This document shows, one piece after another, positions 32,504 through 48,920 of a stretch of DNA of 64,000 bases. The DNA comes from Reichenbachiella agarivorans (GTDB taxonomy: Bacteria > Bacteroidota > Bacteroidia > Cytophagales > Cyclobacteriaceae). The stretch's first letter is position 1; the number at the start of each line of letters is the position of its first letter. Where the stretch lies: contig NZ_CP106679.1 of the NCBI RefSeq assembly GCF_025502585.1, positions 3,751,501 through 3,815,500 of the forward strand, written 5' to 3'. Both the position numbers and the translations under genes were made by a program. Under the pieces are notes generated by a model that saw only the letters and a list, made by a program, of their open reading frames with translations, made no database searches and had not been told where the DNA came from.

Positions 32504-33523
32504 TTATTTAGCTTTTGGCATTCCTCCTAATTTTGATAAGTTCAAAATCTGATCCATCACCCATGAAGTATGCGCTCCAGATAGACCAGTAGACGGATGT
32601 GCTTTTCCTCCGAACAATTCATCGCGCATTCGCTCTACATGATGCAGTTGTACGCTCGATGGATGTGGTACATTCAAAATTTCATCTCCTTGTTTATGTC
32701 TGCAAACCAGGGGTTGATCATCGAAAATAGAAAATTCTATCTTTCCCAAACTCCCATAAATTTCTACTCGATCCTCTTGACTAGCACAACCAAAATTCCA
32801 ACTACCCGATCCAGTCACACCTCCGACATGTAGCCATGAAGCGGTGAAAGCATCCATGGCACCATACAACCCTTGTTGATTCAGACTCATTCCTGCTACC
32901 TGCTTGATCTCTCCCAGCAAATGGACAAACAAATCCAGGCCATGACTCGCTAGATCATCAAAATACCCTCCTGGGGCTACCAAAGGATCCGTTCTCCAAT
33001 TGGGTGATTTAGACAAATCTACCTCTGAGGGTTCTTTGCTATAGTGCCAGCGAATGTGTCTGACCTCTCCTATCTTGCCTTCATCAATCCAAGTTTTCAC
33101 TTGCGTAAATCTTGGCAAAGTGCGACGATAATATGCCACAAATAGCGGCAGTTTTTTCTCTTCAAAAACCTTTACAATATTCTGACATTCCTGATGATTG
33201 GGTGCCATGGGCTTTTCGATGCAGCAGGGTTTGCCAGCAGCAGCGACTTTGAGCGCATAGTATTTGTGAGTATCTGGTGGCGTAGCGATGTAAACAGCAT
33301 CTATCTCTGGATCGTTGATCAGTTGGTCTGCATCGTTAGAGTATTTGGGAACGCCATGTCTCTGAGCATAGTCCTTTGCCTTCTCCAAGTCTCTCCTCAT
33401 CACCGCGCTCAACTCGAATCCAGCTACTTGCTGATAGGCTGGACCACTCTTTACTTCTGTCACATCACCACATCCGATGATTCCCCATTTGATGATTTTA
33501 TCCACTTTTGCCTTTTCTATCAT
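32504..33523 (-). CDS. Gfo/Idh/MocA family NAD(P)-dependent oxidoreductase
   Basis: About 340 residues from ATG 33523 (MIEKAKVDKIIKWGIIGCGD). The longer frame from 33577 adds 18 residues with no family support. The Rossmann motif IKWGIIGCGDV is followed by DAVYIATPPDTHKYYALKVA and the EKP motif CIEKPMAPNHQEC characteristic of the family. The C-terminal half contains PGGYFDDLASHGLDLFVHLL. Members oxidise or reduce sugars and inositols; the substrate is unknown. It is on the same strand as the flavodoxin-fold reductase, 83 bases downstream of that gene. Confidence 0.88.
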   Translation of the reverse strand: MIEKAKVDKIIKWGIIGCGDVTEVKSGPAYQQVAGFELSAVMRRDLEKAKDYAQRHGVPKYSNDADQLINDPEIDAVYIATPPDTHKYYALKVAAAGKPCCIEKPMAPNHQECQNIVKVFEEKKLPLFVAYYRRTLPRFTQVKTWIDEGKIGEVRHIRWHYSKEPSEVDLSKSPNWRTDPLVAPGGYFDDLASHGLDLFVHLLGEIKQVAGMSLNQQGLYGAMDAFTASWLHVGGVTGSGSWNFGCASQEDRVEIYGSLGKIEFSIFDDQPLVCRHKQGDEILNVPHPSSVQLHHVERMRDELFGGKAHPSTGLSGAHTSWVMDQILNLSKLGGMPKAK

Positions 33524-33605
33524 TTGCTTTGCCCACTTGAGTCCTTGATTGAGAACAAACTTACGTAGTGAGACCAAAGAATCATAAAATGATCTGTGTT
33601 AATTC

Positions 33606-37556: not shown

Positions 37557-38138
37557 TTAAGCCAGAGCCTTTTGTATCAACGCCAAATCCTCCGGCAAAT
37601 AATCCAACTTCAATGCCATCTGGTGTCCCTTGTCCGTCATCTTTCCCCAAGTCTTTTGTACAATGTCTATGATCTTGTCTTCCTCGTGCTTAGTCCCAAA
37701 ATCATGAAAGTAGTATTTAAGAAAGACCAGACATACCACATCTTCCAATTCCTTGGATTCTGCATCTGTCTTGAGTTTGTTCTTATTGACCAATTCTACC
37801 ACTTTGTCAATCGAAGTTTTTTCAAACCCTTCCTTCTCCATCAGCTCAGACAGCAATTGTCCATGATACATCTTGAGCATCGTGCGCCATTTGAGGTAGC
37901 CTTTGCGATCCATAGGATAGTCTGATCGTGGGATATGCCATCTCCTGATGTGTTGTCCTCGTGCAGCAATCTGTAACTCTATCGATGCTTGTTCATTGTA
38001 CAGCTCCAACATCTCGGTCATACGTAGACCATAGACCCATTCTTTGGGTACATTTTTTCCATCAACCAGTTCTAGGTTCGGATCCTGATTGTTGATCTCA
38101 TCGATCGCAAAAAGTACATTTTCAAGTGTTTTGTCCAT
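37557..38138 (-). CDS. DUF4202 protein, divergent from nirBD
   Basis: 193 residues matching DUF4202. Conserved features are AARGQHIRRWHIPRSDYPMD, GYLKWRTMLKMYHGQLL and YYFHDF, with several His/Asp positions reminiscent of HD-type metal sites. It has no membrane segment. DUF4202 genes are often found beside nitrite or nitrate reductase genes, and here the gene is head to head with nirB and separated by the TACGTA-box region. This suggests a role in nitrogen assimilation, of unknown mechanism. A metal-dependent phosphohydrolase activity is only a guess. Confidence 0.85.
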   Translation of the reverse strand: MDKTLENVLFAIDEINNQDPNLELVDGKNVPKEWVYGLRMTEMLELYNEQASIELQIAARGQHIRRWHIPRSDYPMDRKGYLKWRTMLKMYHGQLLSELMEKEGFEKTSIDKVVELVNKNKLKTDAESKELEDVVCLVFLKYYFHDFGTKHEEDKIIDIVQKTWGKMTDKGHQMALKLDYLPEDLALIQKALA

Positions 38139-38183: not shown

Positions 38184-38209
38184 TATATCAGATTATTCTC
38201 CAATAAAAT

Positions 38210-38290
38210 TACGTAGTTAGTATAGCTTTTTAAACATAATGTACGTAGTTTTGTTCATGAATAGGTATTTAATACGTAGTTTTACGTAAC
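38210..38290 (+). promoter_or_regulatory. Array of four TACGTAGTT-type boxes upstream of nirB
   Basis: TACGTAGTT occurs at 38210-38218, 38242-38250 and 38273-38281, and TACGTAAC at 38283-38290. Spacings of 32, 31 and 10 bases are near whole helical turns, so all boxes face the same side of the DNA. The same box occurs upstream of the nitrate reductase gene at 43706 and 43729. A candidate -7 element TAGTTTTG (38246-38253) starts 36 bases after the first box. This looks like an activator array; the NarL-type response regulator encoded at 42618 is the nearest candidate. Confidence 0.75.
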
Positions 38291-38302
38291 TTGATAAAAA
38301 TC

Positions 38303-40795
38303 ATGGAGAAAATAATCGTAATAGGTAATGGCATGGTAGGTTATAAGTTTTGTGAGAAACTTAGAGCCAAAGCTGGTAAAAACCAATTTGAAATCACAGT
38401 ATTCGGCGAAGAACCTCACCCTGCATACGACAGAGTTCATTTGAGTGAGTACTTCACCAATCCTTCGGTCGCCAGTTTAGAAATGGCTCCTAGGTCTTGG
38501 TACGAAGAAAATGACATCAATTTGATCTCAGGAGAAATGATTATTGCAATTGATCGAGCCAACAAGACGATCACTTCGCACAAAGGCACTACCCTCTCTT
38601 ACGACAAATTGATTTTAGCAACAGGCTCTAGTGCTTTTGTTCCACCTATCAAAGGTGTCGAAAAACAAGGTGTGTTCGTTTACCGAACGATCGAAGATCT
38701 AGACGCGATCATAGAGTACAGTAAAAAGACCAAAAAAGCAGCTGTGTTGGGCGGCGGACTTTTGGGACTAGAAGCTGCCAAAGCCATGATTGATCTCAAA
38801 CAAGAAACGCATGTAGTAGAATTTGCACCTCGTCTAATGCCGAGACAGTTGGACAATGCAGGTTCGGATGCCCTCCTATCCAAAATGGAAGAGTTGGGTA
38901 TCAGACTACACCTTAATAAAAACACAAGAAACATATCTGGAGATGGAAAAATCACCGCAATGGAGTTTGCCGATGATTCTATACTAGATGTAGAAATGCT
39001 CGTGATCTCTGCTGGTATCAAGCCGAGAGATGAGTTGGCTACTGCATGTGGCCTGGCTGTAGGACAAAGAGGAGGTATCGTAGTGAATGATCTGTTACAA
39101 ACAGACGACACGGATATTTATGCTATCGGTGAGTGTGCCCTTCACAAAAACTTCATTTATGGCTTGGTTGCTCCAGGTTATGAAATGGCGGACGTAGTTG
39201 TCAATCAATTGATAGGCAGCAATGACAAAACATTCAAAAGCTACGACATGTCAACCAAACTCAAATTGATTGGAGTTGACGTAGCAAGTTTTGGCAATGC
39301 ACTTTGTGAAAACGAAACACACAAACCGATAGTATTCGAAGACAACTACAAGGGGATTTACAAAAGAATCAACATCTCTGAGGATGGCAAAAGATTGCTG
39401 GGTGGTATCCTAGTAGGTGAAGCAGAGGCATACAACATGCTCCTTCAAATCACCCTCAATGGCATGGCACTCCCTCCCAACCCTGAGGATCTCATCCTAG
39501 GCAGTCGTGGAGGTGAAGAGACCAAGATGGAACTCCCAGACAGTGCACAGATTTGCTCTTGTGAAAACGTAACCAAAGGAGACATCTGTCAAGCAATAGT
39601 TGACAATGGATTCGAAGATGTCGCACAAGTAAAAGCTTGCACCAAAGCAGGAACTGGCTGTGGTGCTTGTAATCCGATCGTAAAGGACATCTTCAATGAA
39701 CAATTGGCGAAAATGGGTAAAGTAGTCAAAAATGTCATCTGTGAACATTTTGACTACTCTAGACAAGAGCTTTTAGATATCATTAAAATCAAAAAAGTAA
39801 AGGATTTTGATCAATTGCTTGACGAGCATGGCAAGGGTGATGGCTGTGAAACTTGTCGTCCATTGGCCGCTTCTTTGCTTGCCAGCACTTGGAACGAAAT
39901 GATCTTGGAGAAAGGAAAAGATGCCATCCAAGACACCAACGACAAGTACCTCGCCAACATACAAAAAGGTGGTTCGTACTCGGTCGTGCCTAGAATACCA
40001 GGAGGCGAAATCACACCAGACAAGCTGATCGTCATTGGAGAAGTAGCCAAGGAATATGATTTGTACACCAAAATCACTGGGGGACAAAGAATAGATCTAT
40101 TCGGTGCACAAATCCATCAGTTGCCAGACATCTGGGAAAAATTAATCAATGCGGGTTTTGAAAGTGGGCATGCCTATGGCAAATCTCTACGTACCGTCAA
40201 AAGCTGCGTAGGATCAACATGGTGTCGCTATGGATTGCATGACTCAGTATCATTCTCTATCGAGGTAGAAGAGCGATACAGAGGTTTACGTTCACCACAC
40301 AAACTAAAAAGTGCTGTATCAGGATGTAGAAGAGAGTGTGCAGAGGCGCAAAGCAAAGATTTTGGCATCATCGCTACCGAGATCGGCTGGAACCTCTACG
40401 TATGTGGCAATGGCGGATCCAATCCACAGCATGCCGTATTATTAGCAGGAGATGTTGACTCTGCTACCTGTCTAAAGTACATTGATAGATTCCTGATGTT
40501 CTACATCAAAACTGCCGAACCACTCAACAGAACAGCGACATGGCTCAATAAACTAGATGGAGGGATAGACTACCTCATCGACGTAGTGGTCAACGACTCA
40601 TTGGGCATAGCGGCAGACTTAGAAAGAGAAATGCAGTTCATGGTAGACACCTACAAGTGTGAGTGGAAAGAAGTCGTCAACAATCCTGAGTTGAGAAAGA
40701 AATTCACCCACTTTGTGAATACCGAGATTCCAGATCCGACGATGAAGTTCGAAGACATGAGAGGGCAGAAAAAACCAGTAGAATGGGGCGCATAA
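38303..40795 (+). CDS. nirB: Assimilatory nitrite reductase [NAD(P)H], large subunit
   Basis: About 830 residues from ATG 38303 (MEKIIVIGNGMVGYKFCEKL); a TTG 12 bases upstream is the alternative. Order: FAD/NAD(P) pyridine-nucleotide reductase domain; BFD-type [2Fe-2S] domain with CSCENVTKGD and CTKAGTGCGACNP; a second cysteine pair GDGCETCRP; then the siroheme/[4Fe-4S] catalytic half with SCVGSTWCRYGLHDS and SGCRRECAEAQSKDFGIIAT. It reduces nitrite to ammonium in the cytoplasm. nirD follows, forming the nirBD operon divergent from DUF4202. Confidence 0.96.
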   Translation: MEKIIVIGNGMVGYKFCEKLRAKAGKNQFEITVFGEEPHPAYDRVHLSEYFTNPSVASLEMAPRSWYEENDINLISGEMIIAIDRANKTITSHKGTTLSYDKLILATGSSAFVPPIKGVEKQGVFVYRTIEDLDAIIEYSKKTKKAAVLGGGLLGLEAAKAMIDLKQETHVVEFAPRLMPRQLDNAGSDALLSKMEELGIRLHLNKNTRNISGDGKITAMEFADDSILDVEMLVISAGIKPRDELATACGLAVGQRGGIVVNDLLQTDDTDIYAIGECALHKNFIYGLVAPGYEMADVVVNQLIGSNDKTFKSYDMSTKLKLIGVDVASFGNALCENETHKPIVFEDNYKGIYKRINISEDGKRLLGGILVGEAEAYNMLLQITLNGMALPPNPEDLILGSRGGEETKMELPDSAQICSCENVTKGDICQAIVDNGFEDVAQVKACTKAGTGCGACNPIVKDIFNEQLAKMGKVVKNVICEHFDYSRQELLDIIKIKKVKDFDQLLDEHGKGDGCETCRPLAASLLASTWNEMILEKGKDAIQDTNDKYLANIQKGGSYSVVPRIPGGEITPDKLIVIGEVAKEYDLYTKITGGQRIDLFGAQIHQLPDIWEKLINAGFESGHAYGKSLRTVKSCVGSTWCRYGLHDSVSFSIEVEERYRGLRSPHKLKSAVSGCRRECAEAQSKDFGIIATEIGWNLYVCGNGGSNPQHAVLLAGDVDSATCLKYIDRFLMFYIKTAEPLNRTATWLNKLDGGIDYLIDVVVNDSLGIAADLEREMQFMVDTYKCEWKEVVNNPELRKKFTHFVNTEIPDPTMKFEDMRGQKKPVEWGA

Positions 40796-40812
40796 CAATA
40801 AATACTGTAGAA

Positions 40813-41190
40813 ATGACACAAGAAATAGCAGAATACAAAACAGTCAAAGCAGAAGACGTAACTACTTGGTACAAGGCAGCTTCTATGGAAGCATTTCCAG
40901 ACAATGGCGGTGCTGCCATAGAATACAAAGGGTTACAGATTGCCATTTTCAACTTCTCTAGAAGAAAGGAATGGTACGCCAGTCAAAACCTTTGTCCTCA
41001 CAAAAAACAAATGATTTTATCCAGAGGTATGCTGGGATCCGAAGGTGAAGAACCCAAGGTTGCTTGCCCATTCCACAAAAAGACATTTTCACTCAAAACA
41101 GGCAATAACCTCAATGGAGATGAATGTGACTTGGCTACATATCCTGTGAAAATACAGGACGGGTATGTTTACGTAGGTTTTTCTCACTAA
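40813..41190 (+). CDS. nirD: Nitrite reductase small subunit NirD
   Basis: About 125 residues from the ATG 40813 (MTQEIAEYKTVKAEDVTTWY). The earlier in-frame ATG 40783 would overlap nirB by 13 bases. It has the NirD Rieske-like fold, but the pattern is CPHKKQM ... CPFHKKTFSLKTG: two Cys and one or more His are kept, so a Rieske-like site cannot be excluded. It supports NirB activity. A TACGTAGGT sequence near its end is within coding and probably chance. Confidence 0.92.
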   Translation: MTQEIAEYKTVKAEDVTTWYKAASMEAFPDNGGAAIEYKGLQIAIFNFSRRKEWYASQNLCPHKKQMILSRGMLGSEGEEPKVACPFHKKTFSLKTGNNLNGDECDLATYPVKIQDGYVYVGFSH

Positions 41191-41233: not shown

Positions 41234-42610
41234 TTGAGAAGTACAAAAACATTACGAGGACTGGGCTATTCTGGTATAGCTTCACTGATCGCTATAGTTG
41301 CTACTATATTGATCGGACAGTATTACCTGCTCTCTGGCCTATCTGAGAACCAATCAATCGGACAAAAAATCGTCTTTCTGTCTGTTCTGTTGATTCTCAT
41401 CATTGCCATAGTCTTCGCTACGATGTATCCACAGTTCAGAAAGATTTACTTGTCATACACCGAGCTCATTCGATCGGAGGACAATGCCAAAACAATGGCA
41501 TCTCAGGTATCCAAACTCTATGATGAACTAGGTAAATCTTACCAAGACTTAGAGGCCGTCAATCACATACCAGAGGAAATGAGCATCCTGATGAAAGCGG
41601 ATATGAATGGGCGTATTTCACATCTGTCAGAAAAAGTCAAGGAAATACTCTTCATAGACAAGGAAAGCTTTCATAGCAATTTTTTTGATTGGCTCAAAGA
41701 GGAATCATACCGTGAGGATTTCATTGTGCAACTCAAGGACATGATTACTCAACAACAGTCTTGGAATGGAGAAATCAAAGTAGCCAATTCAGAAGGAGAT
41801 TTTGTCTGGTTGGACTTGGTTATTCAGCCAGTCCCTACCTCTGTACTAAAAAATGAATATGCACTTTTGATCATCGGACGAGACATCAGCGACATCAATG
41901 AAGCACGTCAGCGATCAAGAGAAATCAACCACGAACTGGTTGACAAACGAGTCAAAGAGCAGCAATACCGATCCGTACTGATTCTAGAAGGGCAAGAGGA
42001 AGAACGGAAACGTATTGCGCAAGAAATACATGACGGAATCGGTCAAATGCTGACGGGACTAAAACTAAGTCTCGAAGGAATCATCCCTTCGAGTTCACCA
42101 CATATGAGGCAGCGTCTGAGTGACTCCAAACATTTGATGAAAAGCATCATCAAAGAAGTACGCAGGGTATCATTCAACCTCGCTCCTAGCAGTCTGGTTG
42201 ATTATGGAATTGTCCCTGCCCTGAAGAAAATCGGCCAAGAGACAACAGCACTGACAGAAACCATAGTCACCTTTGAAAACAAAACGGGTTTCATCAACAG
42301 ACTAGACAGCAACATAGAAACCAACCTGTACAGAATTGTGCAAGAAGCCGTCAACAATGGTATCAAGTACGCCAAAGCAAAACAAATCAACATCACACTG
42401 AGCCACACGATCAACCAGCTACAGATCCAAGTAAAAGACAACGGAAAGGGGTTTGACATCAAAAAACTAGAAAAGGTAGGTCACTTTGGGGCATCAGGTC
42501 ACGGAATATTCAACATGAAAGAAAGAGCTGCGTATGTCAATGCAGCATTTGAAATAGAGACAAACATCGGACAAGGTACAACAGTGACGATTAAACTACC
42601 TTTAACGTAA
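41234..42610 (+). CDS. NarX/NreB-type sensor histidine kinase with PAS domain
   Basis: 458 residues from a TTG start; an in-frame stop 25 bases upstream leaves no ATG. Two transmembrane helices (about 15-37 and 45-65) are separated by a short loop, so there is no large periplasmic sensor. A PAS domain follows (about 110-230), then a HisKA_3 dimerisation motif with the phospho-acceptor in RIAQEIHDGIGQMLTGLKL, and an HATPase domain with DNGKGFD and GHGIFNMKERA. It is 43 bases after nirD and 8 bases before its response regulator, suggesting it senses a nitrogen or redox signal for these genes. Confidence 0.9.
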   Translation: MRSTKTLRGLGYSGIASLIAIVATILIGQYYLLSGLSENQSIGQKIVFLSVLLILIIAIVFATMYPQFRKIYLSYTELIRSEDNAKTMASQVSKLYDELGKSYQDLEAVNHIPEEMSILMKADMNGRISHLSEKVKEILFIDKESFHSNFFDWLKEESYREDFIVQLKDMITQQQSWNGEIKVANSEGDFVWLDLVIQPVPTSVLKNEYALLIIGRDISDINEARQRSREINHELVDKRVKEQQYRSVLILEGQEEERKRIAQEIHDGIGQMLTGLKLSLEGIIPSSSPHMRQRLSDSKHLMKSIIKEVRRVSFNLAPSSLVDYGIVPALKKIGQETTALTETIVTFENKTGFINRLDSNIETNLYRIVQEAVNNGIKYAKAKQINITLSHTINQLQIQVKDNGKGFDIKKLEKVGHFGASGHGIFNMKERAAYVNAAFEIETNIGQGTTVTIKLPLT

Positions 42611-42617
42611 CCCAACT

Positions 42618-43292
42618 ATGAGTAAAATTAAAGTAATATTAGCAGACGACCACATTATCGTAAGAAACGGAATCAAAATCCTGCTCGAAAGTAACGGTGA
42701 TGTAGAAGTGATAGCAGAAGCTTCCAATGGAGAGGAAGCCTTGGAGAAAGTAAAACTATTACGACCAGACATCCTCATATCTGATATCCGCATGCCTATC
42801 ATGAACGGCATTGAGGCCACTTCTAAAATCAAAGAATTCTCTCCCAATACTAAAGCATTGATATTATCCATGCACGATGACGAAGAATATATCATCAAAT
42901 CCATAGAAAGTGGAGCCTCAGGTTACCTACTGAAAGACACCACCAAAGAGGAGTTTTCAAAAGCACTACACGCCATCATGGATGGACAAAAATATTTCAG
43001 TGGAGACATCTCCAACATCTTGGTCAACTCCTATCTCAACATCAAAGACGGCAAACCTAGCTCTACTACCAATAGCAATGTCGGGGAAGTAGAATACCAC
43101 ATCACCAAAAGAGAAAAGCAAATCTTGCAACTAGTGTATGAAGGAAATAGCAACAAAGAGATCGCCGACAAATTGGGCAAGAGTGTTCGTACCATCGAAA
43201 CACATCGCTTCAACATCATGAAAAAACTCAATGTCTCCAACATCACCGAACTACTGAGAAAAATAGATGCTGAACCCTACATCACTCAATAG
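42618..43292 (+). CDS. NarL/FixJ-family response regulator
   Basis: 224 residues. A receiver domain has acidic residues in ILADDHIIVRNGIK, the phospho-acceptor Asp in DILISDIRMPIMNG and Lys in LLKDTTKEEF. The C-terminal LuxR-type helix-turn-helix is ITKREKQILQLVYEGNSNKE, IADKLGKSVRTIETHRFNIM. It is the partner of the histidine kinase 8 bases upstream. It is the best local candidate for binding the TACGTAGTT boxes upstream of nirB and the nitrate reductase gene. The operon ends at a terminator 207 bases later. Confidence 0.93.
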   Translation: MSKIKVILADDHIIVRNGIKILLESNGDVEVIAEASNGEEALEKVKLLRPDILISDIRMPIMNGIEATSKIKEFSPNTKALILSMHDDEEYIIKSIESGASGYLLKDTTKEEFSKALHAIMDGQKYFSGDISNILVNSYLNIKDGKPSSTTNSNVGEVEYHITKREKQILQLVYEGNSNKEIADKLGKSVRTIETHRFNIMKKLNVSNITELLRKIDAEPYITQ

Positions 43293-43662: not shown

Positions 43663-43705
43663 CTCACCCGAATATATCATATTTTATGTCTTTTAGCATA
43701 AATAC

Positions 43706-43771
43706 TACGTAGTTTACAACATATTTTATACGTACCAATACTTATTTTAAAAATGATTTAATTTATATTTG
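43706..43771 (+). promoter_or_regulatory. Nitrate reductase promoter with two TACGTA boxes
   Basis: TACGTAGTT at 43706-43714 and TACGTACC at 43729-43736 precede a perfect -7 element TATATTTG (43764-43771). The near box starts 35 bases before the -7 element, nearly the same as the 36 bases at nirB. No TTG is present at the -33 position, consistent with an activator-dependent promoter. A further CACGTATAAG follows at 43772. Confidence 0.7.
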
Positions 43772-43836
43772 CACGTATAAGTTAGTGCCACTTTATGATT
43801 CTAACATTGATTTAGTAAACACTTATTCAGATTTAT

Positions 43837-46800
43837 ATGAGTTCTACTTTCAGCAACAAAAATACCATCAAAGCAAATACTACCTGTTCATACTGTGGTG
43901 TAGGATGTGGTATTGAGGTAAGTGTTGACAAGAAAGGCAAAATAGAACTCGAAGGTATCGAGGATCATCCCGTCAGCAGAGGTATGCTGTGTTCTAAAGG
44001 CAGAAACTTGAATTACGTAGTTCAAGATCAATCCGATAGACTCACCTACCCTCAGATGAGATGGTCCAAGAGCCATCCCTTGCAGCGCGTAGATTGGGAC
44101 ACAGCCATCGACCGAGCCGCAGCAGTATTCAAAACTTTCATCGAAAAACATGGGCCTGATTCGGTAGGATTCTACATATCTGGTCAGTGTCTTACAGAAG
44201 AATATTACCTTGTCAACAAGCTGACCAAGGGATTTATCGGCACCAACAACGTAGACACCAACTCCAGACTCTGTATGAGTTCTGCAGTCATGGGCTATGT
44301 CAAGACTTTGGGCGAAGACTCTGTTCCTATCGCTTATGAGGATATTGAAATTGCAGATACTTTCCTAATAGCTGGTGCCAATCCAGCCTGGTGTCATCCG
44401 ATCCTCTACCGCAGAATCGAGCAACACAAGGAAAAGAACCCAGATACAAAAATCATTGTCATCGATCCAAGAGTGACTGACTCATGCTCACACGCAGACC
44501 TGCACTTGCAATTGAGACCAGGCACAGACATTACTTTGCTCCAAGCAATTGGTCGAGTACTGATTGAAAATGGCAATATTGACTTGAATTTCATCCAAAA
44601 TCATGCAGATGGTTTTGAATCTTACAAAGAAGAAGTCTTCCAAACCAGCATCGCCGATGCAGCACAGATCTGTGCAATTCCTGAAACAGACATTCGCTTG
44701 GCAGCCCAATACATCGGCAATGCCAAGGCATTTTTGTCCATGTGGACGATGGGCTTGAACCAAAGCACACAGGGCGTCAACAACAATTTTGCCCTCATCA
44801 ACCTGAACCTGATCACGGGACAGATCGGCAAACCTGGAGCAGGACCATTCTCCCTCACAGGTCAGCCCAATGCCATGGGTGGTCGAGAGGTCGGTGGCAT
44901 GGCTACTCTCCTAGCCGCTCACCGCAACCAAGCCAACCCCGAACACAGAGACGAAGTAGCCAAGTTTTGGGGTGTGGATTCCATGCCTGACAAACCAGGT
45001 CTCACAGCTACACAGATGTTTGATGCACTGGATTCTGGAGAACTGAAAGCACTATGGATCATCTGTACCAATCCGTCTGTCAGTATGCCAGACGCCAACT
45101 TGGTAGATCGAGCACTAAAGAAAGCCAAATTCGTCATCGTCCAAGACATCTCCTACAAGTCCGACACTGTCAAATATGCCGACTTGGTACTCCCAGCGGC
45201 AGGGTGGTTGGAAAAAGAAGGTACGATGACCAACTCGGAGAGAAGAATCTCCTACCTACCCAAAGTTGTAGACGCACCTGGCGAAGCACTGCCAGACAAC
45301 GAAATTTTGATGCGCTTTGCGCGCAAGATGGGCTACCATGGTTTTGATTTTGAGACCATCCAAGACATCTATTTGGAGCATTGTCAATTGACCAAAGGCA
45401 CCAATATTGACATCTCGGGTCTCAACTATGATAGACTCAAAAAAGAAGGTAGTGTACAGTGGCCTGTTCCTTCCGAAGGTCACCCTGGCACCAAAAGACT
45501 TTTTGAAGACAAAGTCTTCTATACACCCAACAAGAAGGCACAAATCCTGACAACTGGCATCTCCAATCAAGGAGATATGATTTCAACAGACTTTCCATTG
45601 ATATTGACTACTGGACGAATCAGAGACCAGTGGCACACCATGACCCGAACAGGAAAGGTGAGCAAGCTCAACAAGCATATTGCCAAACCTTATCTAGAGA
45701 TACACCCAGCTGACGCCAAAAAGAGAGACATAGCAGATGGCTCACCCGTCATAGTCAAAAATGAACGTGGGGAAGTCAAAGTAACTGCTACCCTCACAGA
45801 CAAAATCAAGCAAGGAGTGGTATTCCTCCCGATGCACTGGGGCAAAATACTGGAAAGCAACTTTGGCAGAGCCAACAACCTGACCAACAAAGCATTTGAT
45901 CCGATCTCAAAACAACCCGGATTCAAATATTCGGCTGTTGAGGTGGAGAAATTCGTCAAACCCGCGCAGAAAATCGTGATTATAGGTGCAGGAGCAGCAG
46001 CATACCGCTTTCTCAACACCTACCGCACACTCAACGAGTTGGACGAAATTCATGTGTTCTCCAAGGAAGAATATCCCTTCTACAACAGGGTACTGCTCCC
46101 AGAATACGTCAACCAACATAAACGTTGGGAAGACCTGCTCAAGTTCAAGTACGGTGAGTTCGAGGATCTCAATGTCCATCTGCACAAGTCTTGTAGCATA
46201 GAAAAAATCAACCGGGAAGCAAAGACAGTCACAGATCAGTTTGGCAAGACGCACCCTTATGATATACTGATCTTGGCAACAGGCTCTAGGGCTTTCGTAC
46301 CGCCGAATATTCCGTTGGACAAACCAGGACTGTTCACCATGAGGGATCGATCTAGTGCTGATGCTTTGATCGAGTTCACGGGCAACAAAGGACACGTGGT
46401 GATCGTTGGCGGTGGACTGTTGGGATTGGAATTGGCCTCTGCGCTGCGTGAGATTGACGTACGGGTATCTATCATTCAGTTGTCCAACCGACTCATGGAG
46501 CGACAGCTAGACCCTATGGCCAGCACCCTACTCCGCCAACTGATGGAGGACATGGATGTTGCTGTCTACACCAACGATGAAGTACAAGCCCTCAGAACCT
46601 TCGAAAAAGAAAAAAGAGTCGAGGCAGACCTAAAAAGCGGCAAAACACTCCATTGCAATGCGGTCGTATTTGCCATAGGCACCCGACCCAACTCAGAGAT
46701 GGGAAGAGAAATCGGATTGGAGTGTGGACGAGGAATCTTGGTCAACGATTACCTACAGACCTCTGACCCTTCTATCTATGCGATCGGTGAGATAGCAGAG

Positions 46801-47379
46801 TTCAACAGGATGCTGAATGGTACTACTGCGGCTGCCGAGGACATGGCTGACATCTCAGCTAGACACGTAGCGGGCAACTTGACCGCACTGTATCAAGGCA
46901 CTGTCTCGATGAACATCCTCAAGTTCCCTGATTTGGATCTCTGCTCCATCGGGATGCCAGATCCACCACCGACCATGAAGGATTATGAAGAGATTCTATT
47001 CCTAGACAAGTCTCAGAAGTACTACAAGAAATGCATCATCCACAATGATAAGTTGATAGGTGCCATCCTGATGGGAGACAAATCCGAATTTGCGGAATTC
47101 AAAGAACTCATCGAAAACAATGTAGAACTGTCCGACAAGCGAAAAGAATTATTAAGATCAGGCGACAAAGGCGAACCGATGATTGGTCAACTAGTCTGCT
47201 CTTGTAATAATGTCGGGACGGGCAATCTGGAAAATGCCATTACCAGTGGGTGTAACAACCTGATCGATATATGTCAAGCCACAGGTGCAGGATTGGGCTG
47301 TGGCAGTTGCAAAGGTGAGATCCAACAGATGCTCAAAGCGCACCAAAATCAAACAAAACAAGAGGTTGTAGAAGCCTAA
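43837..47379 (+). CDS. Single-chain assimilatory nitrate reductase with fused NirB-like FAD and BFD-type [2Fe-2S] modules
   Basis: 1180 residues. The N-terminus has the [4Fe-4S] ligands C17, C20, C24 and C52 (CSYCGVGC ... GMLCSKG). The molybdopterin-binding domain (about 60-700) has SGQCLTEEYYLVNKLTKGFI, LIAGANPAWCHP, ICTNPSVSMPD and a C-terminal RIRDQWHTMTRTGKVSKLN. From about 712 a NirB-like FAD/NAD(P)H reductase begins (KIVIIGAGAAAYRFLNTYRT, ILATGSRAFVPP, VIVGGGLLGLELASAL). The end is a BFD [2Fe-2S] domain, CSCNNVGTGNL ... GLGCGSCKG. So one chain can pass electrons from NAD(P)H to Mo and reduce nitrate to nitrite, for nirBD to complete. Confidence 0.93.
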   Translation: MSSTFSNKNTIKANTTCSYCGVGCGIEVSVDKKGKIELEGIEDHPVSRGMLCSKGRNLNYVVQDQSDRLTYPQMRWSKSHPLQRVDWDTAIDRAAAVFKTFIEKHGPDSVGFYISGQCLTEEYYLVNKLTKGFIGTNNVDTNSRLCMSSAVMGYVKTLGEDSVPIAYEDIEIADTFLIAGANPAWCHPILYRRIEQHKEKNPDTKIIVIDPRVTDSCSHADLHLQLRPGTDITLLQAIGRVLIENGNIDLNFIQNHADGFESYKEEVFQTSIADAAQICAIPETDIRLAAQYIGNAKAFLSMWTMGLNQSTQGVNNNFALINLNLITGQIGKPGAGPFSLTGQPNAMGGREVGGMATLLAAHRNQANPEHRDEVAKFWGVDSMPDKPGLTATQMFDALDSGELKALWIICTNPSVSMPDANLVDRALKKAKFVIVQDISYKSDTVKYADLVLPAAGWLEKEGTMTNSERRISYLPKVVDAPGEALPDNEILMRFARKMGYHGFDFETIQDIYLEHCQLTKGTNIDISGLNYDRLKKEGSVQWPVPSEGHPGTKRLFEDKVFYTPNKKAQILTTGISNQGDMISTDFPLILTTGRIRDQWHTMTRTGKVSKLNKHIAKPYLEIHPADAKKRDIADGSPVIVKNERGEVKVTATLTDKIKQGVVFLPMHWGKILESNFGRANNLTNKAFDPISKQPGFKYSAVEVEKFVKPAQKIVIIGAGAAAYRFLNTYRTLNELDEIHVFSKEEYPFYNRVLLPEYVNQHKRWEDLLKFKYGEFEDLNVHLHKSCSIEKINREAKTVTDQFGKTHPYDILILATGSRAFVPPNIPLDKPGLFTMRDRSSADALIEFTGNKGHVVIVGGGLLGLELASALREIDVRVSIIQLSNRLMERQLDPMASTLLRQLMEDMDVAVYTNDEVQALRTFEKEKRVEADLKSGKTLHCNAVVFAIGTRPNSEMGREIGLECGRGILVNDYLQTSDPSIYAIGEIAEFNRMLNGTTAAAEDMADISARHVAGNLTALYQGTVSMNILKFPDLDLCSIGMPDPPPTMKDYEEILFLDKSQKYYKKCIIHNDKLIGAILMGDKSEFAEFKELIENNVELSDKRKELLRSGDKGEPMIGQLVCSCNNVGTGNLENAITSGCNNLIDICQATGAGLGCGSCKGEIQQMLKAHQNQTKQEVVEA

Positions 47380-47482: not shown

Positions 47483-47507
47483 AAACTTTAATGAATAAAG
47501 GTTGAGC

Positions 47508-48920
47508 ATGAAGAAAAAGGATTTGGTAAGGGTCTTTGTCAAGGGTGGAATCTTGTCGACAGGTGATTTTCTCAAAATCATCAAAACTGCGAATAAGTTA
47601 GGGAGTGACTATGTGCACTTTGGTTCCAGACAAGATATTTTGTTTCCAGTCGCAGAGAAGAACAAAAAGGCACTAGACGAAACCTTCACTCAAATCAATA
47701 CCGACTACCAAATCAACGACTTTACTCATCAAAACATCATCAGTTCCTACGTCGCTCTGGATGTGATGCCACACAGAGTATGGCTGGTTCCGCACGTTTT
47801 CCACCATATACTAGACAGCATCAAAACCAAATCCAAGTACCGTATCAACATCGTAGATCCTTTGCAAAGTATGGTACCGCTGTTTACAGGCAACATCAAT
47901 TTTATTGCTTCCAAACAAGACAATTACTGGTACTTGTATCTGCGATTCAAAAACACCAACAATCAACCTATAGCCTATTCAAAAATCATCTATGGCTATG
48001 AATTGCACAAAGTAATTTCCTTGATCAGTGAGATGAACGTAGATGAAGACAACATTCAAATCGAGGATGTATTCAAAGCCATAGACAAACTAGACCTAAC
48101 CAAGCAAAACCCACAAGAAGAACTTCACTACCCAAAAAGCAACTTCCCCTACTACGAAGGACTCAACAGAGAACCAGGAGGCAGTTATTGGCTAGGACTC
48201 TATTGGAGAAACAACAAGTTCAGTATCAAAATACTCATCGACATCTGTCAGCGCTGCATCGACACCAATGTCGGTAGAATCAGCCTCACTCCATGGAAAT
48301 CCTTTATCATCCAGGGGATTCAAGAAAAGCACTTGATTGGTTGGGACAAACTGATGGGAAAATCAGGCATGAACCTCAGACACTCCTCCCTAGAACTCAA
48401 CTGGCATTTGCCCGTCTTGCACAATGAATGCTTGGAACTCAAAAACTATCTGGTACGCGCACTCGATCAGCAAGACATCAGTACCTCTGGCTTGACTTTT
48501 ACAGTCAAGCCTAACGACGACATCTATTTATTCACTTCTGTGGTAATAGAATTTGACGAGCAAACTCAAGGTGAGAGACAGTACAACATCCTCTACAGCA
48601 CGGGGTTTAACCCCAATGCTGGCGAATACCATACCTATGTAGCTAATGCATCAAGAGAGATCCTGCCTGCCCTTCTCATCGAACTCAGTCACTTGTACTA
48701 CGAACAGCTGGAAGAAGTCCCTGTTGACAACTCTCCTTCAAGAAAAGAAGAAGTGTCCCAATCCGTCAAACACCAATGCAGCAGCTGCATGACTGTCTAT
48801 GACGAACAATATGGTGATCCTGCAGCAGACATTGCTCCCAATACGTCCTTTGAGCAATTGCCCGCTGATTATATCTGCCCCACATGCGGAGACGACAAGA
48901 GCCATTATAGTTTGATTTAG
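47508..48920 (+). CDS. Siroheme-reductase-like protein lacking the cluster cysteines, fused to rubredoxin
   Basis: About 470 residues from ATG 47508 (TTG 47502 is the alternative). The N-terminal part (VRVFVKGGILSTGDFLKIIK, then LGSDYVHFGSRQDILFPV) and the middle part (NVGRISLTPWKSFIIQGIQE) match the two ferredoxin-like halves of nitrite/sulfite reductases. The Cys motifs that hold their [4Fe-4S]-siroheme are absent; the only Cys before residue 420 are in DICQRC and HNEC. The C-terminal about 55 residues are a rubredoxin: CSSCMTVYDEQYGDPA ... LPADYICPTCGDDKSH. It probably serves as an electron carrier or assembly partner in nitrate assimilation; it directly follows the nitrate reductase. Confidence 0.85.
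   Translation: MKKKDLVRVFVKGGILSTGDFLKIIKTANKLGSDYVHFGSRQDILFPVAEKNKKALDETFTQINTDYQINDFTHQNIISSYVALDVMPHRVWLVPHVFHHILDSIKTKSKYRINIVDPLQSMVPLFTGNINFIASKQDNYWYLYLRFKNTNNQPIAYSKIIYGYELHKVISLISEMNVDEDNIQIEDVFKAIDKLDLTKQNPQEELHYPKSNFPYYEGLNREPGGSYWLGLYWRNNKFSIKILIDICQRCIDTNVGRISLTPWKSFIIQGIQEKHLIGWDKLMGKSGMNLRHSSLELNWHLPVLHNECLELKNYLVRALDQQDISTSGLTFTVKPNDDIYLFTSVVIEFDEQTQGERQYNILYSTGFNPNAGEYHTYVANASREILPALLIELSHLYYEQLEEVPVDNSPSRKEEVSQSVKHQCSSCMTVYDEQYGDPAADIAPNTSFEQLPADYICPTCGDDKSHYSLI

Follow-up and report, generated by a model that had tools for sequence, protein, structure and literature searches.

Results

Organization of the nirB locus

TACGTA boxes upstream of nirB and of the nitrate reductase gene of R. 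agarivorans are very probably the operators of the NarL/FixJ-type response regulator encoded at 42618..43292, the partner of the histidine kinase encoded at 41234..42610, and would place a nitrate/nitrite-assimilation regulon under its control. The proposal is drawn from sequence comparison, namely from the placement of the boxes, their co-occurrence with the kinase across genomes and a stretch of the recognition helix that varies with them. The window, i.e. the whole stretch of 64,000 nucleotides that was analyzed, corresponds to positions 3,751,501-3,815,500 of a genome of 4,474,154 bp, and, judged by NirB, Reichenbachiella agariperforans (92%) and R. versicolor (85%) are the closest named relatives.

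On the plus strand, nirB (38303..40795, NADH-nitrite reductase large subunit, TIGR02374 above the cut-off) is followed by nirD (40783..41190, nitrite reductase small subunit, TIGR02378 above the cut-off), the histidine kinase gene (41234..42610) and the response regulator gene (42618..43292), whose product, the proposed box binder, carries Pfam Response_reg and GerE domains above the cut-off. The kinase has two transmembrane segments (assigned by eye) and PAS, HisKA_3 and HATPase domains; the periplasmic PilJ domain found in its orthologs is missing. Further downstream on the same strand, nasC (43837..47379) encodes a molybdoenzyme fused to a NirB-like reductase part, which was called an assimilatory nitrate reductase from its context, as the NasC model and, with slightly higher scores, formate dehydrogenase models matched below their cut-offs. 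The next gene (47502..48920, plus strand) encodes a nitrite/sulfite reductase half-domain protein with a C-terminal rubredoxin. Divergently from nirB, a DUF4202 gene (37557..38138, minus strand) shares the array region with it, and the DUF4202 protein may take part in nitrite assimilation. In several relatives a tetrapyrrole methylase takes the place of DUF4202 as divergent nirB neighbor, as seen from the gene in one case and from the N-terminal sequence in the rest. TACGTAGGT at 41170, where nirD ends, stands 64 bp ahead of the kinase gene, and the two-component genes may have an internal promoter there; in G130 an exact TACGTA-N4-TACGTA unit lies 57 bp before the kinase gene.

TACGTA boxes upstream of nirB and nasC

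Four near-identical boxes had been described upstream of nirB. Three of them (38210..38215, 38242..38247 and 38273) match TACGTAGTT exactly, whereas the fourth at 38283 reads TACGTAACT and agrees in the hexamer only; the spacings of 32, 31 and 10 bp were given correctly. Boxes 3 and 4 together form the exact unit TACGTAGTTTTACGTA (38273..38288), one of three in the genome. Both boxes predicted before the nitrate reductase gene are present as well: the upstream one (43706..43711) is an exact TACGTAGTT, and the second at 43729 reads TACGTACCA, matches in the hexamer only and, with a TACTTA 10 bp further on (43739), forms the one-mismatch unit TACGTACCAATACTTA (43729..43744). The hexamer also occurs inside genes, as had been noted, with an exact TACGTAGTT at 44014 within the nitrate reductase ORF. 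A further copy at 33562, originally listed apart from those inside genes, is ambiguous in its placement, since the longest reading of an ORF on the minus strand (32504-33577) includes it, 10-15 bp from the first possible start codon.

Within the window, TACGTA occurs 14 times (4.5 expected). None of 5000 shuffles matched the four copies of the 164-bp nirB intergenic region, and 13 of 5000 reached the two copies of the 544-bp intergenic region before nasC; across the genome the hexamer is found 327 times and its reversed form 989 times. The core motif is TACGTA, not TACGTAGTT, and its tightest form is the 16-bp pair TACGTA-N4-TACGTA. As a motif, TACGTAGTT was rejected for being too narrow, since relatives keep TACGTA alone; of its 26 copies in the genome, 16 belong neither to the window nor to the second nitrate cluster, and the longest-ORF rule places 10 of that group inside ORFs.

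Position of the boxes relative to candidate promoters

Candidate Bacteroidota -7 elements matching TAnnTTTG were assigned on the plus strand to nirB (TAGTTTTG, 38246..38253) and to the nitrate reductase gene (TATATTTG, 43764..43771). The predicted geometry, with a box 35-36 bp before such an element and no TTG at -33, was recovered at both promoters: the distance is 36 bp from 38210 to 38246 and 35 bp from 43729 to 43764, and within 38195-38310 and 43690-43840 there is no TTG upstream of either element. The element at 38246 overlaps box 2 of nirB, which leaves boxes 3 and 4 on its downstream side. In a set of 44 promoters, of which many are related, a TAnnTTTG followed a box at an offset of 33-36 bp ten times (about 0.8 expected), and offsets of 15 bp (3) and 55 bp (4) recurred in the same set. 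This suggests that the box is preferentially placed 33-36 bp upstream of TAnnTTTG, a preference to be read with the relatedness of the promoters and the other recurring offsets in mind. A single promoter rule for every target was not obtained, as TAnnTTTG was absent 15-60 bp downstream of the boxes at seven putative target gene types of this genome (the CRP/FNR, nrt, NarK, HPP, Amt, glutamine synthetase and MCP genes); the unit of the CRP/FNR gene, 29 bp ahead of the ATG, is followed by no TAnnTTTG.

Spacing of the boxes was analyzed with one genome per genus (18 genera), of which 16 have at least two boxes and yield 55 distances of 8-130 bp. Distances between neighboring boxes cluster near 10-11, 20-22, 31-33 and 42-43 bp, with patterns such as 32-31(-10) in Reichenbachiella, 42-31-10 in Flexithrix and 21-21 in Aureibaculum, a member of another order. 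At a period of 10.5 bp the vector strength is 0.43, a value reached in none of 2000 runs in which each box was jittered by up to 5 bp. With distances pooled per genus, the vector strength forms a broad peak of 0.45 at 10.25-10.5 bp and stays at 0.34-0.41 across 10.75-12 bp; much of the signal comes from the 10-bp unit and the spacing of 31-33 bp. In line with the original prediction that the boxes face the same side of the helix, the spacings in these 16 genera favor a period of about 10.5 bp.

Exact units and the genes they precede

Exact TACGTA-N4-TACGTA units occur three times in the 4.47-Mb genome, each before genes of the nitrate clusters, namely nirB, a CRP/FNR-family gene and an alginate-export-type porin gene with an NMT1-type ABC transporter downstream. 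For a distance of exactly 10 bp between boxes, about 0.024 occurrences are expected (327 squared divided by the genome length, calculated by hand). Five further units with one mismatch were found, before nasC, a small MCP/PilJ gene, an Amt gene and a glutamine synthetase gene, with one intragenic, and boxes also precede narK and lie between a LysR gene and a TM_HPP gene. The mismatch-tolerant count was dropped as evidence, since the reversed pattern is commoner once mismatches are allowed (8 units against 19 with up to one mismatch, 60 against 251 with two allowed); the argument is therefore one of placement, not of number. Beside the CRP/FNR gene, an MFS transporter gene is split into two ORFs in R. 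agariperforans (L265:11800-13297) and is a single ORF in the genome of the window.

Across genomes, 58 exact units (14 of the reversed pattern) were obtained in the 34 genomes with an ortholog of the kinase and 82 in 257 others, 11 of these in one genome; totals per class were summed by hand. The genes following 39 units of relatives were inspected, a set consisting of 36 of the 58 units of the 34 positive genomes and three from two named Reichenbachiella genomes, without the window's own unit and with one duplicate row removed; some of the loci had been chosen for containing nirB. Thirty of the 39 precede nitrate or nitrite genes (29 nirB, CRP/FNR, narK, porin, kinase or nasC genes and one formate/nitrite transporter gene), one precedes a globin gene and eight precede genes with no evident link to nitrate. 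Among the matches listed, nirB or CRP/FNR genes adjoin units in 5 of 10 loci of kinase-positive genomes compared with 0 of 20 in the others. In kinase-negative genomes, exact units were also seen next to genes of other NarL-type regulators or kinases (29-37% identity) at L060, L061, L064, L069 and L072, 5 of the 20 such loci among the matches listed, and other regulators may read them there.

One activator had been proposed for both operons, with the response regulator at 42618-43292 named as the protein to examine. A single regulator for the two is retained here, with a regulon that appears wider than two operons and with boxes that are less conserved at nasC, where they were found in 5 of 14 kinase-positive and 2 of 52 kinase-negative loci within the fetched regions. 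At narK the corresponding counts, again in fetched regions, are 5 of 8 and 4 of 49.

Co-occurrence of the boxes with the kinase

NirB (TIGR02374) was detected in 106 of the 291 genomes of the host order, and the nirB regions of 103 of them were analyzed together with the window's own (104 loci); G110 and G120 were left out as the N-terminus of nirB is missing, and G192 was kept with a family match starting from position 46. Full-length matches of at least 195 bits in whole-genome searches with the kinase of the window were counted as orthologs, a threshold chosen after the tables had been seen, which separates 34 positive from 70 negative genomes; at 180 bits, G133 (184 bits, with kinase and nirB on different contigs) becomes a box-negative exception within the order. 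TACGTA is present within 300 bp upstream of nirB in all 34 genomes with the ortholog but in only 2 of the 70 without it (Fisher 2e-25, relatedness ignored), and at least two copies are present in 31 of 34 compared with 0 of 70. The box is thus conserved upstream of orthologous nirB genes where the kinase is present, and neither of the two outcomes originally named as refuting the prediction was obtained. Of 24 palindromic hexamers of the same composition, TACGTA alone was enriched: 94 copies were counted in 33 positive loci and 2 in the 70 negative loci, while the 23 others reached at most 6 and 18 copies in these classes.

In family f16, in which both states are present, the box accompanies nirB in 10 of 10 genomes with the kinase and in 0 of 5 without it. 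The same division was seen in 14 nirB genomes of other orders (5 of 5 against 0 of 9), for which the kinase was sought in the fetched nirB regions only and L262 is positive at 180 bits. From 32 named nirB loci, 29 entered the first box survey and 25 the regulator survey; the seven outside the latter comprise four without a box and three without the nirB start, and L020, L021, L022 and L024 are the same genomes as members of the order and hence not independent. Single boxes occur without the kinase in L035, L037, L038 and L049, the first three of which have no linked regulator, and L031 has three boxes, no linked regulator and a kinase fragment at the contig end. In L022 and L024, both box-negative with NHRAN-helix regulators, TACTTA-N4-TACnnA-like pairs were noticed by eye upstream of nirB and may represent a diverged operator.

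The recognition helix of the linked regulator varies with the boxes

The regulator combines a receiver with a C-terminal GerE helix-turn-helix, both above the Pfam cut-offs, as in NarL/FixJ (LuxR-type) proteins, and NarL (1a04, E=1.3e-33) is its second-best PDB match. It scores below the cut-offs for NarL proper (PRK10651, 144 bits, cut-off 250) and for FixJ proper (PRK09390, 89 bits, cut-off 255). Linked regulators could be aligned at 25 loci with the kinase, including the window's own, and at 41 without it. The two classes differ in the stretch of the recognition helix covering residues 191-199 (RTIETHRFN, codons at 43188..43214, plus strand): R191, E194, H196, F198 and N199 are present in 25 of 25 regulators of kinase-positive genomes, whereas N195 and A198 are invariant in the 41 regulators of kinase-negative genomes, where E194 does not occur. 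Of these 41, 16 share R191 and H196 and 13 share N199, and R197 is present throughout both classes. G236, which is kinase-negative with a regulator match, has a single distant box.

Further loci, in which some named loci repeat genomes of the order, gave a similar picture. Ten regulators of the HRF type, seven of them from named loci and three from the 14 genomes of other orders, are each accompanied by at least three boxes (one of the ten has Ser at 199), and nine of the NHRA type by none, except for one box at -157 in L049. Residues 194, 195 and 198 align with K188, V189 and K192 of NarL, which we take to be base contacts of NarL; a printed source for the base-contacting residues of NarL was not found in the literature search. 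The window regulator thus has E194, T195 and F198 where NarL has K, V and K. These three residues, varying with the operator, offer a natural specificity pair for NarL/FixJ regulators.

The kinase has lost its sensor domain

The kinase resembles NarX and NarQ in its HisKA_3 and HATPase core and in its linkage to nitrate genes. A periplasmic NarX-like PilJ sensor is absent, as no PilJ match was obtained in the kinase of the window or in that of R. agariperforans, whereas ortholog kinases carry PilJ between two membrane helices (E=4e-11 in R. versicolor, E=3e-17 in Flexithrix). Judged from these domain matches, the kinase of the window has lost its periplasmic sensor domain, and so has that of R. 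agariperforans; the loci bearing on the loss are window 41234-42610, L006:13941-14837, L018:12961-14340 and L019:12924-14711. The best PDB match of the orthologs' PilJ domain is weak (6gcv, E=0.003; paper PMC6381276); it is entered as a chemotaxis transducer and is, we assume, the nitrate-sensor domain of McpN. The published N-box is exact in 18 of 25 nirB-linked kinase orthologs of at least 195 bits.

A separate protein of 298 aa with the order transmembrane segment, PilJ, transmembrane segment and coiled coil is encoded in the nitrate-transport operon (L006:13941-14837). Its counterpart in the nitrate-transport cluster of R. agariperforans has about 277 aa and is 64-65% identical to it, and the N-box of the separate protein has Ser where the published consensus has Ala. 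It is conceivable, though rather unlikely, that this protein acts in trans with the kinase as a split nitrate sensor, with feedback through the regulator-controlled operon. Against such a split sensor, G250 has the separate PilJ protein although its kinase keeps the sensor. PilJ-bearing homologs of 695 and 707 aa in R. versicolor (L263:1317-3404) and G268 (L264:1011-3134) adjoin a receiver protein and Amt/SpoIIE-like genes and have TACGTA boxes upstream, and the one of R. versicolor carries Hpt and HATPase domains; the separate PilJ protein may therefore serve another pathway. The two loci look like a second nitrate-signaling branch. Most kinase-negative nirB loci have a PilJ kinase of about 500 aa instead, which fits the PAS-less class in the available text of PMC8199190.

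Discussion

Proposed mechanism and alternative explanations

In the proposed mechanism, one dimer of the regulator would occupy each 16-bp TACGTA-N4-TACGTA unit, and additional dimers would load cooperatively on boxes that share its face of the DNA at distances of about 21, 31-32 or 42 bp. In its phosphorylated form, the regulator would control nirBD with the two-component genes, the nitrate reductase gene, the porin and nitrate-type ABC transporter genes, narK and the CRP/FNR gene and, less surely, the HPP, Amt and glutamine synthetase genes. At nasC, the unit, whose end is just upstream of the -7 element, would take the place of the missing -33 element, as expected for an activator. Binding, its dependence on phosphorylation, activation and nitrate as the signal are the parts of this scheme that we infer. 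Boxes 2-4 of nirB overlap the only TAnnTTTG there or lie beyond it, an arrangement with which repression or dual control fits as well as activation. That the regulator binds the boxes and mainly represses, or activates some promoters and represses others, is a possibility we hold to be somewhat unlikely. It gains from the position of the unit 29 bp before the ATG of the CRP/FNR gene and from E. coli NarL, which in the available text of PMC4549865 acts both ways according to site position, repressing frdA from near-start sites and activating narG from upstream sites. It is opposed by the nasC unit, 35 bp upstream of a -7 element without a TTG at -33, and by the excess of 33-36 bp offsets, which was obtained with related promoters and beside recurring offsets of 15 and 55 bp.

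Other proteins have to be weighed as readers of the boxes. The spacing of TACGTA-N4-TACGTA resembles that of a CRP site, the two hexamers could be the half-sites of the CRP/FNR-family regulator encoded at L006:5320-6027, the unit precedes the gene of this regulator both here and in relatives, and in L028 a CRP/FNR gene directly follows the response regulator gene. Single boxes 31-32 bp apart are nonetheless unsuited to a CRP-type dimer, and the recognition helix that differs between the genome classes is that of the response regulator. The presence of boxes also does not follow the CRP/FNR ortholog (at least 270 bits), which was found in 15 of the 104 nirB genomes, all box-positive, and is absent from 21 of the 36 box-positive genomes; the CRP/FNR protein was therefore rejected as the binder, a role we regard as quite improbable for it, and is better read as a target. 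Co-occurrence by itself is unable to separate linked genes, so that some other DNA-binding protein co-inherited with the kinase-regulator pair might read the boxes, and the exact units beside other NarL-type regulator genes in kinase-negative genomes point the same way. This, too, appears improbable, as it is the linked regulator whose own recognition-helix residues differ with the box, and as, in the 33 other kinase-positive genomes, the fetched nirB region contains the kinase in 25 cases and an alignable regulator in 24. A chance cluster in AT-rich intergenic DNA, for which the AT-rich composition of TACGTA and its abundance in the genome might speak, is ruled out for practical purposes by conservation in 18 genera, together with the shuffles, the control hexamers and the spacing bias. 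We thus favor the response regulator as the protein that reads the boxes.

Comparison with known systems

The best-scoring NCBIfam models for the kinase and the regulator are those of MctSR, both far below the cut-off (136 bits, cut-off 700, and 192 bits, cut-off 300, respectively). A closer relation is seen to the PAS class of nitrate-sensing histidine kinases of Bacteroidetes reviewed in PMC8199190 (available text), which orthologs of the window kinase match in their PilJ/NarX-like sensor, their PAS domain and their position beside nitrate genes; HAMP or GAF domains gave no Pfam match in these orthologs, and the kinase of the window differs from this class in having lost the sensor domain. 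The operator is not described in that text, in which TACGTA, promoter and nirB do not occur. Among the matches listed from the open-licence literature, no operator or regulon of nitrate assimilation in Bacteroidota was found, which, given this scope, is no proof of absence. The kinase class itself has already been published. The hexamer array makes the nirB promoters of the PAS-type nitrate two-component system recognizable from sequence alone, and the regulon it outlines is directly testable.

With NarXL and NarQP of E. coli, the system shares a NarL-type regulator, orthologous kinases with a PilJ (NarX-like) sensor and several sites per promoter. The 16-bp unit resembles the NarL 7-2-7 site TACCCCTAAAGGGGTA, in which inverted heptamers flank 2 bp (PMC4549865, available text), in its length and its TAC...GTA ends, while the inner bases of the heptamers differ. 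It departs from NarXL and NarQP further in that each half-site is palindromic, the kinase of the window has no sensor and the regulon is assimilatory.

With its RTxExHR sequence, the recognition helix of the window regulator is FixJ-like. FixK belongs to the CRP/FNR family, so that for both FixJ and, as proposed, the window regulator a CRP/FNR-type gene is a target. The inner bases of the 16-bp unit likewise resemble FixJ boxes: the SELEX class GTAMGTAG and the R. palustris fixK motif GTACGTAG cover or contain TACGTAG, and phased arrays of palindromic cores are not described for FixJ in the available text of the same sources (PMC4999443, PMC13327599). FixJ differs in answering oxygen through FixL, and it belongs to another pathway and another phylum.
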